The notes beneath the pieces are model-generated. The model was not told the origin of the DNA. It did not search any database and saw only the letters and a program-made list of their open reading frames with translations. Position numbers and translations under genes: made by a program. A stretch of 64,000 nt of DNA from Inquilinus sp. Marseille-Q2685 (GTDB taxonomy: Bacteria > Pseudomonadota > Alphaproteobacteria > DSM-16000 > Inquilinaceae): contig NZ_CAKAKL010000001.1 in NCBI RefSeq assembly GCF_916619195.1, positions 1,612,001 to 1,676,000 on the forward strand, written 5' to 3'. Positions 20,785 to 40,208 of this stretch are shown here, one piece after another. The first letter of the stretch is position 1. Every line of letters starts with the position of its first letter.

Positions 20785-20878
20785 CACCGTTATTGCGAGG
20801 AAGCGCAGCCGACGAAGCAATCCAGGGGCTGGTTCGCATCGGCTCCTGGATTGCTTCGCTGCGCTCGCAATGACGGTG
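20785..20878. repeat. Dispersed double-hairpin repeat, TTGC-stem variant
   Basis: A left arm CACCGTTATTGCGAG..GAAGCAATCCAGG is mirrored by CCTGGATTGCTTC..CTCGCAATGACGGTG. The ATTGC/GCAAT stem is also present within each arm. It lies between the LVIVD gene and the 3' end of the DUF1127 gene and may help terminate both. Confidence 0.75.
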
Positions 20879-36308: not shown

Positions 36309-37280
36309 ATGCTGCCGAAGGCGGAGCTTCACCTGCATCTGGAGGGCGCGGCCGGCCCGGACCTGGTCCGCCGCCTGGCCGACCGGCACGGCATGGCCTT
36401 GCCGGCGGAGCTGTTCAACGCCAAGGGCGAGTTCGCCTGGACCACCTTCCTGCACTTCCTCAAGGTCTACGACCTCGCCAGCACGGTGATCAGAACCGAG
36501 CAGGATTATCGCGACGTTACCTACGAATACCTCAAGGCTTGCGCGGCCGAGGGTGCGATTTATGTCGAGCTGATGTCCTCGCCCGACCATGCCGCCGCGG
36601 CCGGCCTGTCCTATCAGGGCCATCTCGACGGCATCGTCCAGGGCATCGAGGATGCGCGGGCCGAGACCGGCATCGAATCCCGCATCATCGTCACCTGCGT
36701 CCGCCACCTGGGGGCGGAGCGCGGGGTCGAGGTCGCGAAGCTGGCGGCGAAGCACCCGCATCCGCTGGTCACCGGCTTCGGCATGGGCGGCGACGAGGCC
36801 GGCTTCCCGCCGCGGCTGTTCGCCCAGGCCTTCCGCATCGCCCATGACGAGGCCGGCCTGGCCTGCAACGTCCATGCCGGCGAGGCGGCGGGGCCGGAGA
36901 GCGTGTGGGCCGCGCTGCGCCTGCCGGTGACCCGCATCGGCCACGGCGTGCGCTCGATCGAGGACCCCACCCTGGTGCGCGAGCTGGCCGACCGCGGCAC
37001 GGTGCTGGAGGTGTGCCCGACCAGCAACATCGCCACCAAGGTCTATCCGGACTATCGCGCCCATCCGCTGCGCAGGCTGATGGAAGCCGGGGTGAAGGTG
37101 ACGCTGAACAGTGACGACCCGCCCTATTTCGCCACCACCATCGGCCATGAATACGCTGTGGCGGAGCGGCATTTCGGTCTCGACGAGGCCGCCCTGCGGC
37201 AGGTCACCCGCACCGCGCTGCAGGCCGCCTTCGTCGACGAACCCACCCGGGCCAGGCTTCTCGCCAGGCTCGAGTCCTGA
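36309..37280 (+). CDS. add: Adenosine deaminase
   Basis: The 323-residue TIM-barrel metalloenzyme deaminates adenosine to inosine. Zinc and catalytic motifs are PKAELHLHLEGA (residues 3-14, two metal His), NVHAGEAAGPESVWAAL (metal His and catalytic Glu), IGHGVRSIED (catalytic His) and LNSDDPPYF (metal Asp). The purine branch thus complements cdd and deoA in the same operon. The ATG at 36309 directly starts the conserved MLPKAELHLHLEG. Confidence 0.95.
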   Translation: MLPKAELHLHLEGAAGPDLVRRLADRHGMALPAELFNAKGEFAWTTFLHFLKVYDLASTVIRTEQDYRDVTYEYLKACAAEGAIYVELMSSPDHAAAAGLSYQGHLDGIVQGIEDARAETGIESRIIVTCVRHLGAERGVEVAKLAAKHPHPLVTGFGMGGDEAGFPPRLFAQAFRIAHDEAGLACNVHAGEAAGPESVWAALRLPVTRIGHGVRSIEDPTLVRELADRGTVLEVCPTSNIATKVYPDYRAHPLRRLMEAGVKVTLNSDDPPYFATTIGHEYAVAERHFGLDEAALRQVTRTALQAAFVDEPTRARLLARLES

Positions 37281-37309
37281 TCCCAACCCGAAGGAAGAAA
37301 GAGGATTCC

Positions 37310-37657
37310 ATGACCATCAAGCGCATCGGCGTCGGCCCACGCATGAGCCAGGCGGTGATCCACGGCGACCGCGTGTTCCTGGCCGGCCAGGTCGCCGAGA
37401 ACCCGATCCCGGACGTGACCGAGCAGACCCGCCAGATCCTGGCGACGATCGACGGCCTGCTGGCCGAGGCCGGCACCGACAAGACCAAGCTGCTGACCGC
37501 CAACATCTGGCTGGCCGACATCGCCGATTTCGCGGCGATGAACGCGGCCTGGGACAAGTGGGTCTCGCCCGGCAACACCCCGGCCCGCGCCACGGTCGAA
37601 AGCAAGCTGGCCGGCCCCGAATACCGGGTCGAGATCCAGGTCACCGCGGCGATCTGA
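37310..37657 (+). CDS. RidA/YjgF family protein
   Basis: The 115-residue protein of the Rid superfamily includes MSQAVIHGDRVFLAGQVAENP, QILATIDGLLAEAGTDKTKLLTANIWLADIADFAAMNAAWDKWV and a C-terminal ARATVESKLAGPEYRVEIQVTAA carrying the Arg that binds carboxylates in imine-hydrolysing RidA. Some Rid subgroups act in pyrimidine catabolism, so its place at the end of a nucleoside operon is suggestive. The native substrate is not shown by the sequence. Confidence 0.9.
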   Translation: MTIKRIGVGPRMSQAVIHGDRVFLAGQVAENPIPDVTEQTRQILATIDGLLAEAGTDKTKLLTANIWLADIADFAAMNAAWDKWVSPGNTPARATVESKLAGPEYRVEIQVTAAI

Positions 37658-37676
37658 TCGCAACGGCCTTCAAAGG

Positions 37677-37736
37677 ACCGTCATTGCGAGCGCAGCGAAG
37701 CAATCCAGGGCCATTTGGTGTGGCCCCTGGATTGCT
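37677..37736. repeat. Dispersed double-hairpin repeat, left part, interrupted by an insertion sequence
   Basis: This part has ACCGTCATTGCGAG..GAAGCAATCCAGGG, a central spacer, and CCCTGGATTGCT up to the insertion point. Joined to 39393-39422 it restores a complete copy of the repeat seen at 20785-20878. Confidence 0.8.
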
Positions 37737-37739
37737 CAC

Positions 37740-37754
37740 ATGAGGAGTGTATGG
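37740..37754 (+). repeat. IS subterminal inverted repeat, transposase-distal end
   Basis: ATGAGGAGTGTATGG begins 3 nt inside the element end. Allowing one gap, 12 positions match ATGAGGGTGGATAG at the other end read in the opposite direction. Confidence 0.6.
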
Positions 37755-37980
37755 GTCAAGGGGGGGCGAGAGGTCTTTCGTTGTTGCTGGCGGCGATGGC
37801 GTGACCGATGGCGCGCGCAGATCAAGTCAAGGCCGGCCCGCAGGGGCGCCGCGAAGCGGCTTGGTCTTGACGTGATCGAGCGCGCCATCAAGCTGGTGCG
37901 GTCGGCAGCACCGGAGCGGAGGGCCGTGGCGATCCCTGGGTCGAGCCGGTGCGACGATCTGGGTTGCCGGCCAGATCAAA

Positions 37981-38088
37981 CTCACATTCGGTCGTCGCGC
38001 GAGGCGACAGCACCACGCTTCCGCTTGCGGCGGGCAGGCTCGAGAGGACGAGACCAGTCTTCGTTGCGGCGATGAGCCATGCAATCCA
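37981..38088 (-). ncRNA. Candidate seekRNA/bridge RNA of the IS1111-like element (guide-containing segment)
   Basis: The non-coding part of the element downstream of the transposase contains, on the transposase strand in 5'-3' order, three matches. TGGATTGC (complement of 38081-38088) equals the target left of the core (37728-37735). ACGAAG (complement of 38059-38064) is the reverse complement of CTTCGT at 39391-39396 across the right junction. ATGTGAG (complement of 37981-37987) is the reverse complement of the junction CTCACAT at 37735-37741. Bridge/seekRNAs pair one guide with each DNA strand of the target and of the donor, and this order and polarity fit. The fourth guide is only weakly visible (GCTTCCG at 38017-38023 against GATTCCA). 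The RNA ends are unknown. Confidence 0.45.
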
Positions 38089-38157
38089 TCGGTTCGTCCA
38101 CCCGGATCGGCCGAGGCTGATCGGGCCTCGGCGGAACGGCTGGGCGGCGGCCTGTGG

Positions 38158-39315
38158 TCAGGCCGTCTTGATCACCGCGCCCTCGATGACGACGCCGGCT
38201 GTGACGTACTTCCACAAGGCCACCAGAAGCTTGCGCGCCAGGGCGACGATGGCGCGCTTGCGGTCGCGCTGGCCACGGGCCTGGAACCAGCGTGCCAGGG
38301 CCGACTGCGGCTGGTGCCGCAGCCACAGCCAGGCGAGCTGGATCATCACGGTGCGCAGCCGCGGATTGCCGGCCTTCGACACACCCTGCTCATGCATGAT
38401 GCTGCCGCTGCGCCACGGCGTCGCCGCCAGCCCCGCATAGGCGGCCACCTGGCGGCGATTGGCGAAGGATCGATAGAAGCCCTCCGACCAGAGAACCGCC
38501 GCAAAGGTGGCGCCGATCCCCCGCACTGCCGACAGCATCGCCACCGGCTCCGAGGCGGCCGTCTCACCGGCGCCGGTCTCGGCCAGCACGGCCTCCTGCT
38601 CGGCCTCGACCCTCTTGATCTGGTCGACCAGCAGCTCGAGCCGGTCCAACTCGCGGCTGATCTGCGCCGTCAAGTGCGGCGGCAGCGCCCGCCCGTCGGC
38701 CGTGTGCAAGGCCGCAAGCCGCTCCCGCCGGTCGCGCCGCTGCGGCGCGTAGTCGGTGATACCCTGCGCGAACAGAAGCCCCTTGATCCGGTTCACATGC
38801 GTGGTCCGCTCACAGATCAGCGTCTGGCGTTCGCGGCACAGCCGGCGCCGATCCTCCTCTTCCGGAGAGGGCGCCACCACCATGGCGCAGACCCGCGGCT
38901 CGCCGCGCTTGTAGGCCAGAAGCGCCCGCAGCAGCGCCTCGCCGTCGAGCCGGTCCGTCTTGGCCCGCCGGCGCCGACGCGGCGCCGCAATCGACGCCGG
39001 ATCCACCACGTGGCTCTCGATCCCCTCCCGACACAGAACCCGGTGCAGCCAGAACCCGTCCAGCCCAGTCTCCTGAACGGTGATGATCGGATAGCTCCGG
39101 CCCGTCCGCATCGCCGCCTTGCGCCTGAACTCTGCAAACAGCGCCAGCAGCCCCGCGACATCGCCCGCCCCGACGCTGTGCTTGGACATCTTCTCCCCGC
39201 CGCCGGGCGACAGTGAGGTGATCAGCCAACTCGAACGGCTCAGTTCCAATGACACAAAAATTGCGCCAATCTGTGTCCGGATAGCGGCCTGTCCCTCGCA
39301 AGGTTGATCGAGCAT
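38158..39315 (-). CDS. IS110 family transposase
   Basis: The roughly 385-residue transposase has an N-terminal RuvC-like DEDD domain and a C-terminal Transposase_20 domain. In the RuvC part the first acidic residue appears as Glu24 in FVSLELSRSSW, the second lies in TVQETGLDGFWLHR and the last two in KTDRLDGEALLR. The C-terminal domain has VRGIGATFAAVLWSEG, RQVAAYAGLAATPWRSGS and GVSKAGNPRLR, whose Ser is the likely nucleophile. IS110 enzymes are RNA-guided recombinases. ATG 39315 has a GGAGA site; a TTG ten codons upstream is possible. The frame is intact, so the element could be active. Confidence 0.93.
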   Translation of the reverse strand: MLDQPCEGQAAIRTQIGAIFVSLELSRSSWLITSLSPGGGEKMSKHSVGAGDVAGLLALFAEFRRKAAMRTGRSYPIITVQETGLDGFWLHRVLCREGIESHVVDPASIAAPRRRRRAKTDRLDGEALLRALLAYKRGEPRVCAMVVAPSPEEEDRRRLCRERQTLICERTTHVNRIKGLLFAQGITDYAPQRRDRRERLAALHTADGRALPPHLTAQISRELDRLELLVDQIKRVEAEQEAVLAETGAGETAASEPVAMLSAVRGIGATFAAVLWSEGFYRSFANRRQVAAYAGLAATPWRSGSIMHEQGVSKAGNPRLRTVMIQLAWLWLRHQPQSALARWFQARGQRDRKRAIVALARKLLVALWKYVTAGVVIEGAVIKTA

Positions 39316-39371
39316 CGGTCGTCTCCAGGGTGAGTGGGATAGCAACCTCAGCCTGGGCCGACTCCTGGCCG

Positions 39372-39385
39372 CTATCCACCCTCAT
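39372..39385 (-). repeat. IS subterminal inverted repeat, transposase-proximal end
   Basis: Read on the minus strand, ATGAGGGTGGATAG begins 7 nt from the junction if the AG core is counted. It pairs with the repeat at 37740-37754. Confidence 0.6.
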
Positions 39386-39392
39386 GGAATCT

Positions 39393-39422
39393 TCGTCGGC
39401 TTCGCCTCCTCGCAATGACGGT
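39393..39422. repeat. Dispersed double-hairpin repeat, right part after the insertion sequence
   Basis: TCGTCGGCTTCG..CTCGCAATGACGGT completes the right arm of the repeat that begins at 37677. The insertion fell just inside the ATTGC/GCAAT stem of that arm, in its loop. Confidence 0.8.
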
Positions 39423-39437
39423 TCTTTTGCAGCGCCC

Positions 39438-40208
39438 TCACTCGATCGCGGACAGAAACCGGTCCAGCCGCAGGCCGGCAGGCCAGGTCCAGACCGGCTG
39501 CGAGGCGCGGCCGAGGTCCCAGGACGCGACCACGACCTCGGCCTTGCCGACCAGGTCACCGACGGGCAGCAGGCCGACGCCACCCGCGCTGACCGGCAGA
39601 CGGCTGTCGGCCGAGTTGTCGCGGTTGTCGCCCATGACGAAGAGATGGCCGGGCGGCACCGTCACCTCCGCCATCTCGTCCAGAGGACCGCGCGCATAGA
39701 GCTTGAAGATCGGGTGGCTGACGCCGCCCGGCAGGGTCTCGACCGCGCGGATGGCGATGGCGGTCGTGCCGTTGCCGCGCTCCACCCTGCCCTCGCCGTC
39801 CGGCCGCAGCCCCGCCGGCTCGCCGTTGATCCAGAGCCGCCCGTCGCGCATCGCGATGCGGTCGCCCGGCAGCCCGATCACCCGCTTGACCCAGGTCTGC
39901 GACGGGTCGCCGGGCCAGCGGAAGACGACGACGTCGCCGCGCGCCGGCAGCCGGCCCAGAACCCGGCCGCTCTCCGGCACGGTCAGGCCGAAGGGCAGCG
40001 ACGCGGCGCTGTAGCCGTAGCTGAACTTCGCCGCCACCAGCTCGTCGCCGATCTGCAGCGTCGGCTCCATCGAGCCGGAGGGCACATAGAAGGGCTCGGC
40101 GATGGCGGTCTTGCCGGCGGCGATCACCAGCAGCAGCGCCGCCAGCTCGCCGGCGCCGCGCAGCCAGCGCCGGGCGCCTCCGTTCCTCGATGCCGTGTCG
40201 GCCGCCAT
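39438..40208 (-). CDS. lepB: Signal peptidase I
   Basis: The 256-residue inner-membrane serine protease removes signal peptides from exported proteins. After one N-terminal helix (about 20-36) come box B PSGSMEPTL with nucleophile Ser46, RGDVVVFRWPGDPSQTWVKRVIGLPGD with general base Lys108, and the MGDNRDNSADSR box. It starts with a short cytoplasmic tail. The repeat split by the insertion sequence ends 15 bp past its stop. It may not be the only lepB in the genome. Confidence 0.94.
   Translation of the reverse strand: MAADTASRNGGARRWLRGAGELAALLLVIAAGKTAIAEPFYVPSGSMEPTLQIGDELVAAKFSYGYSAASLPFGLTVPESGRVLGRLPARGDVVVFRWPGDPSQTWVKRVIGLPGDRIAMRDGRLWINGEPAGLRPDGEGRVERGNGTTAIAIRAVETLPGGVSHPIFKLYARGPLDEMAEVTVPPGHLFVMGDNRDNSADSRLPVSAGGVGLLPVGDLVGKAEVVVASWDLGRASQPVWTWPAGLRLDRFLSAIE

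Follow-up and report, generated by a model that had tools for sequence, protein, structure and literature searches.

A putative bridge RNA whose guides follow insertion sites in a glutamate-bearing clade of IS110-family elements

What could lead an insertion element into a single position of a repeated palindrome? The question is raised by a 64,000-nucleotide (nt) stretch of DNA from Inquilinus sp. Marseille-Q2685 (contig NZ_CAKAKL010000001.1, positions 1,612,001 to 1,676,000; hereafter the window, in whose coordinates positions are given), where an IS110-family element lies in such a repeat. About 420 nt of its non-coding DNA lie downstream of the recombinase gene and 47 nt upstream of the TTG start. 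A first, sequence-only reading of the window had taken the downstream segment for a seekRNA whose target guide explains insertion in the repeat. This view is supported by the covariation of guides with flanks and by a consensus fold. From comparison with relatives, we consider it very probable that insertion of this IS110-superfamily element is RNA-guided and that the downstream segment is a bridge RNA (seekRNA) with target and donor guides. Our analysis yielded the conservation of the RNA region, the covariation of four guides with DNA, a compensated stem and four element copies at one site.

Guide words and the palindromic target

Three words, TGGATTGC, ACGAAG (38059-38064) and ATGTGAG, had been proposed as guides. 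They indeed lie in this order within 108 nt on the minus strand (Table 1), and each occurs once in the 412-nt stretch 37746-38157. When this stretch was shuffled 20,000 times with its dinucleotides preserved, the words turned up in 107, 1,732 and 262 shuffles, respectively, any two of them in 36 and the ordered triple in none. On the gene strand TGGATTGC is 5' of ACGAAG, likewise in the aligned relatives. The list was incomplete, as a left donor guide, GGAAG (38018-38022), had been overlooked.

Both junctions carry a CT, as had been claimed. On the left, TGGATTG (37728-37734) is followed by CT (37735-37736) and the element starts at 37737; on the right, the element end GGAAT (39386-39390) is followed by CT (39391-39392) and, from 39393, by the half-site TCGTCGG. 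The genome contains four full copies of the element, in different places and with flanks that differ beyond the repeat, all inserted at the same position of the same palindromic repeat. The half-site TGGATTGCTTCG has 102 exact matches genome-wide, against 0 for a reversed-pattern control, and among 100 places listed these half-sites mostly form inverted pairs 31-34 bases apart.

The palindromic repeat, with arms CGTCATTGCGAG and TGGATTGCTTCG, is seen at 37679-37736 together with 39391-39420, and at 20788-20875. Of the intact siblings said to lie nearby, one is the intact palindromic repeat at 20788-20875, some 17 kb away; the rest of the claim comes down to the second arm of the repeat that the element occupies (37696-37707). 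For the repeat word TCATTGCGAG, no study of such a repeat appeared among the literature matches listed. Relatives in Bradyrhizobium are inserted in a similar repeat.

Target guides and flanking DNA among relatives

Of 219 relatives identified in the genome collection by a protein search, the 80 best were retained, and whole-genome searches added L087 and L088 (loci bear our own numbers). A one-strand profile search with the RNA region of the window (E below 1e-8) then retrieved 83 loci, namely L003, L004, L087 and all 80, with 69 distinct sequences. L001 and L002, which represent the same element, were missed because they are stored reversed, and were set aside. Relative to the end of the recombinase gene, which was found at 81 of the 83 loci, the region starts between -83 and +56 nt. 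Its alignment displays a conserved scaffold and two short hypervariable stretches, located exactly at both target words. The sequence-only reading had considered that relatives with other targets might carry the same sequence at 38059-38088; this is not so, and the segment changes with the target.

Element ends were located without use of the guides, with the pattern AGAT..(C/T)ATG for one end and CAT(A/G)(T/C)(A/G)AG for the other, both in gene orientation. This gave usable left flanks at 78 and right flanks at 69 of the 83 loci. L083 has no left end, and a pattern right end was missing near contig ends (L018, L032, L033, L037, L039) as well as away from them (L010, L017, L019, L023, L081, L082, L085). 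L060 contains N, the last right-end candidate was used instead of the first in L036, and the right ends of the contig-end loci L035, L036 and L038 are doubtful.

The right target guide matched its own flank at all seven positions in 45 of 78 loci and at six or more in 64. For the 44 distinct right guides, a mean of 4.5 of 5 variable positions matched (5/5 in 28, 4/5 in 10 and 3/5 in 6), compared with 1.36 in permuted pairs. The 36 distinct left target guides matched on average 6.86 of 8 positions versus 3.42 after permutation, the best of four registers being taken for both, and 25 of them matched 7 or 8. As many of the elements are related, the comparison was also restricted to mutually dissimilar guides: the own flank was then best or joint best for 13/13 right and 9/9 left guides. 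Altogether, the pairing of guides with flanks indicates that the guides covary with the target.

A later test relied on a covariance model built from the 69 sequences. Among 385 genomes of the class, 8 matched at E up to 1e-5, including that of the element itself, and among 23 loci of other IS110-family members L106, L092 and L088/L127 (one element) matched. The guides of this later set were read by eye and the partial match L140 was left out. Five of its eight elements have a pattern left end; in these, the right target guide agrees with the flank at 7, 7, 6, 6 and 6 of 7 positions. In the case of L149, 2 of 50 foreign flanks match the right guide equally well. The set includes a Roseomonas element whose recombinase is 43% identical. 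Left guides that could be compared with pattern right ends, those of L144 and L145, both match at 8/8. In L148, the left guide is mismatched to a doubtful pattern right-end candidate 529 nt away and matches a nearer end found with the guide. The right ends of L148 and L149 found via the guide itself were not counted, and none was found for L147 and L092. L143, L144 and L146 have no pattern left end, and the right end of L146 has no flank.

One may wonder whether protein contacts alone read the repeat, the guide matches being chance or relics of earlier insertions. Protein-only target choice is generally known among IS elements, and a lone element could show such matches by luck. However, the guides track the flanks across the 44 and 36 distinct guides while the relatives' recombinases are 60-80% identical, the matches fall in one and the same loop, each on the strand expected, and 20,000 shuffles never produced the ordered triple. 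We rejected protein-only recognition since the guides follow the flanks even when they are mutually dissimilar, and we find it barely credible.

RNA fold and donor guides

RNAalifold, applied to the 69-sequence alignment, predicts an 8-pair stem and 3 outer pairs around one internal loop, in which the left target guide occupies the 5' side and the right target guide the 3' side, facing each other. The right donor guide is unpaired. In this consensus, 94.2% of cells pair and 12 of the 23 pairs show double changes; because the fold itself comes from this alignment, the pairing percentage is biased in its favour, and the double changes are the stronger part. Only 4 of 500 shuffles reached 12 double-change pairs, and none of the 500 attained either the observed count of double-change cells or the observed covariation score; pairing fell to 29-49% when partners were shifted by one, two or three columns. 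Resolution is weak for the donor region, where the three outer pairs are invariant. As for the earlier concern that the matches might sit in stems rather than loops, the consensus places both target guides in the internal loop and leaves the right donor guide unpaired, but the fold of the single sequence pairs part of the left target guide.

On the donor side, the right guide is identical to the terminal heptanucleotide of the element in 70 of the 71 loci with a pattern-located end, a count conditional on the pattern, which allows eight end forms and finds none of them at 12 of 83 loci. Its states are ATGTGAG (56), ATATAAG (13) and ATACAAG (1), and the exception combines a guide ATACAAG with an end ATATAAG. 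The left donor guide GGAA is paired with the end ATTCC at 16/16 loci, and GGGA with ATCCC, ATCCT, ATGCC or ATACC at the other 66; the base facing the core varies. In the Bradyrhizobium relatives this guide reads GGAAT. By this comparison the guides also covary with the donor ends, more weakly than with the target and in few states.

It could be argued that only the target guides are real and that the donor matches reflect conserved ends with another role, such as a protein site or a promoter, inherited together with the RNA. The small number of donor states implies few independent changes, and TTGA recurs within the terminal 36 nt of the element at 64/70 loci, as expected if the joined ends build a promoter. 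Moreover, Siddiquee et al. give, in the part of their paper available here, target matches of the seekRNA and not donor guides (PMC11187229). On the other hand, the right matches extend over 7 nt including the core, at nearly every locus counted, and the rarer left state is paired without exception. We regard a restriction to the target guides as unlikely.

Several points nevertheless weigh against a bridge RNA with all these guides. Fewer than 6 of 7 positions of the right target guide match at 14 of the 78 loci, and fewer than 7 of 8 for 11 of the 36 distinct left guides. The latter also need a choice of register: 42 distinct combinations of guide and next base divide into 29 at register 0, 12 at -1 and 1 at -2. 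Right guides end in an invariant AG. At register 0 the core C is faced by C in 20 left guides and by U in the other 9, either being able to pair with the opposite G; registers were assigned by match score, a procedure that favours C, though not U. In the 12 guides at register -1 the base that comes next is A (5), C (4) or T (3), and pairing with the core is thus not general among them. In the present element the left donor guide matches at only 4 of 5 positions (GGAAG versus GGAAT), and with donor guides in only two or three states, shared descent may explain part of the signal. The end pattern limits how far right ends can vary, and 7 of the 12 loci that it misses have more than 800 nt of DNA remaining; other end forms or broken copies are thus outside the counts. 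In single-sequence folding of the 53-nt target loop, TTGC of the left guide pairs with a GCAA adjoining the right guide, and the stability does not exceed that of shuffles (z-scores of -0.20 for the whole region and -0.23 for the target loop; the donor region gives +1.33). The structure therefore rests on the alignment. Finally, an Rfam search of 37000-40000 with E up to 1 gave no family matches.

Within the genome, the covariance model R1 finds four full matches. Two weak partial matches to its target-loop part (G000:C2:164141-164213 and G000:C7:324288-324363; 18.8 and 16.6 bits) are chance or decayed copies.

The recombinase and its relation to known systems

The recombinase matches the RuvC-like domain PF01548 (40.8 bits) and the Tnp domain PF02371 (54.6 bits), both above the curated cut-offs, and NF033542, the NCBI model for IS110 RNA-guided transposases (216.6 bits for a cut-off of 140). 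It departs from the DEDD signature, as the first residue is Glu34, followed by E92, D131 and D134. Glu occupies this position in all 68 rows aligned there (71 rows, 3 with gaps), and the conserved SG motif of the Tnp domain (S313 G314) is present in 71/71; L040 and L043 yielded no protein for this alignment. Asp is found at the first catalytic position in 12 properly framed other IS110-family sequences (L094, L095, L097, L098, L099, L101, L103, L109, L112, L113, L114, L123) and, in a separate alignment, in L102, L104 and L120. A profile alignment with 11 of these D-type members (the twelve minus L114) places the Glu on their Asp. The count of twelve leaves out the misframed L100, L102, L104, L105, L106 and L107, the gapped L096 and the unaligned L117. 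One D-type member, L103 (G000:C1:20940-21923), is a second IS110-family element of the same genome.

An AlphaFold model (mean predicted local distance difference test score 82.4, predicted template modelling score 0.61) falls below 50 in the former score at residues 1-23, 123-130 and 312-322, the last of which include the SG loop. The predicted fold aligns to IS621 over 294 residues at about 20-22% identity, and sequence searches reach significance against IS621 solely in the C-terminal half. The structure alignments begin at model residue 27 and IS621 residue 4 (8wt9_A) or at 28 and 5 (8wt6_D), which would put Glu34 on D11 of IS621, provided that the first strand aligns ungapped.

Mutation of D11 abolished recombination by IS621 (PMC11208158; the PMC articles are cited from part of their text). 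On this basis, the clade could be decaying, the Glu having inactivated the enzyme and the copies being moved by the enzyme of another element. Yet the Glu is fixed while the guides match very diverse sites, near-identical multi-copy families are present, and a long-dead enzyme could hardly keep guides and sites in step. Decay thus seems very unlikely to us. We rather propose, with fair confidence, that the clade has swapped the first metal-binding Asp of the DEDD motif for Glu and stays active, that it combines the IS1111 layout with longer recombinases and very short inverted repeats, and that natural re-addressing has directed one RNA scaffold to dozens of sites, its left target guide occupying two registers relative to the core.

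A parallel can be drawn with the IS1111 seekRNA elements ISEc11, ISPa11 and ISKpn4 (PMC11187229), in which the gene is likewise followed by a long non-coding region, asymmetric extensions of 7 and 3 nt lie beyond the subterminal inverted repeat (here AGATTCC and GTG), and the T-match of the seekRNA precedes the B-match. Insertion into a repeated palindromic sequence is likewise known for ISPa11 in REP (repetitive extragenic palindromic) sequences (PMC11187229). The label IS1111-like, used in the sequence-only reading, thus fits the layout. It does not fit the recombinase, of 395 residues versus 330-350, the inverted repeat, 6 nt exact versus 11-13 bp near-perfect, nor the first DEDD residue, Glu versus Asp; moreover, donor guides are recognised here, unlike in the described part of the IS1111 seekRNA work (PMC11187229). 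With IS621, of the IS110 group, the element shares two guide regions that would read target and donor strands, the CT core, and a recombinase with RuvC-like and Tnp domains, a conserved SG and a matching predicted fold (PMC11208160, PMC11208158). The RNA is downstream here and upstream in IS621, and the order of the guides relative to the gene is reversed. In contrast to the TIGR-Tas nucleases (NF052498), against which the model scores lower than against IS621 and ISCro4 in both structure comparisons, the gene lies within an insertion element having its own ends.

We infer transcription, binding, circle formation, cutting and strand exchange from these known systems. The downstream non-coding segment would be transcribed into the bridge RNA (seekRNA), one internal loop of which would pair with both target strands via TGGATTGC and ACGAAG, and a second region of which would pair with both strands of the joined element ends via GGAA(G) and ATGTGAG. 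The recombinase would hold both DNAs, cut beside the shared CT core and exchange strands. On this view, the element would always enter the palindromic repeat at a single position and in a single orientation.

The principle itself is known: published work describes bridge RNAs downstream of the gene in IS1111 elements, matches to target and donor, and natural re-addressing (PMC11187229, PMC11208160), the last for only a few cases in the accessible part of the seekRNA paper (PMC11187229). Among the literature matches listed, open-access papers and outside ISfinder, we found no account of this clade, and one complete listing did not contain the word EEDD. To our knowledge, the Glu of the clade, the full set of four guides and the catalogue of natural targets are new. 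Bridge RNAs attract interest as tools for programmable DNA insertion. In this clade, natural pairs of guide and target can be read within a single scaffold, all four guides are displayed for an element with a downstream RNA, and Glu stands at a residue whose mutation abolished recombination by IS621. The requirements for guide length, register and metal ligands can thus be tested directly.

Table 1. Features of the element and its site in the window
Feature	Position	Strand	Remarks
IS110-family insertion element	37737..39392	-	one core CT included; 37735-39392 with both CT; junctions read directly
Left target half TGGATTG and core CT	37728..37736	+	identical left half at 4/4 copies in the genome
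Core CT and right target half TCGTCGG	39391..39399	+	after T: CGTCGG in 3/4 copies, CGCTGC in 1/4
Subterminal inverted repeat, left arm	37740..37745	+	ATGAGG exact; 3 nt (37737-37739) from left end
Subterminal inverted repeat, right arm (CCTCAT)	39380..39385	+	5 nt from core CT, 7 counting CT
TTGACC, possible -35 box of promoter at joined ends	37754..37759	-	promoter use presumed
Region of putative bridge RNA / seekRNA	37960..38144	-	about 185 nt; conserved in 83 loci, 69 distinct
Right donor guide ATGTGAG	37981..37987	-	same as element end
Left donor guide GGAAGC	38017..38022	-	GGAA matches element end ATTCC
Target-loop closing stem, 3' arm	38047..38056	-	helix 2
Right target guide AACGAAG (seekRNA B-match)	38059..38065	-	6/7 match to site
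Left target guide TGGATTGC (seekRNA T-match)	38081..38088	-	
Target-loop closing stem, 5' arm	38090..38099	-	helix 2, 6/11 pairs with double changes
Recombinase reading frame, 395 residues	38158..39345	-	TTG start (start uncertain); PF01548, PF02371, NF033542, fold matches

The subterminal repeats had been placed 3 and 7 nt from the ends, as we also find when the CT is counted. Six bases match exactly, an ungapped comparison of the first 12 positions gives 7 matches, and relatives show 7-10 of 12 (11 loci of 70 examined). The element sits between the reading frames 37310-37657 and 39438-40208 and interrupts neither; their products presumably resemble a RidA-type protein and a signal peptidase.

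Bradyrhizobium erythrophlei GAS478 contains at least 7 near-identical copies of its element (L006-L012); in L007 another right end occurs 24 bases beyond the first, such as a nested or tandem event would leave. TTGAC is found about 20-25 bases inside the corresponding end of the present element and recurs in relatives. The DNA between the RNA region and this end measures 219 nt here, 248-274 nt in the Bradyrhizobium kin and about 90-115 nt in most relatives. The extra DNA holds a G+C-rich palindrome (37790-37935), and L027, L044, L046 and L068 are likewise long there. We considered whether this palindrome is itself mobile and had entered the right end; within this genome it is confined to the four element copies.
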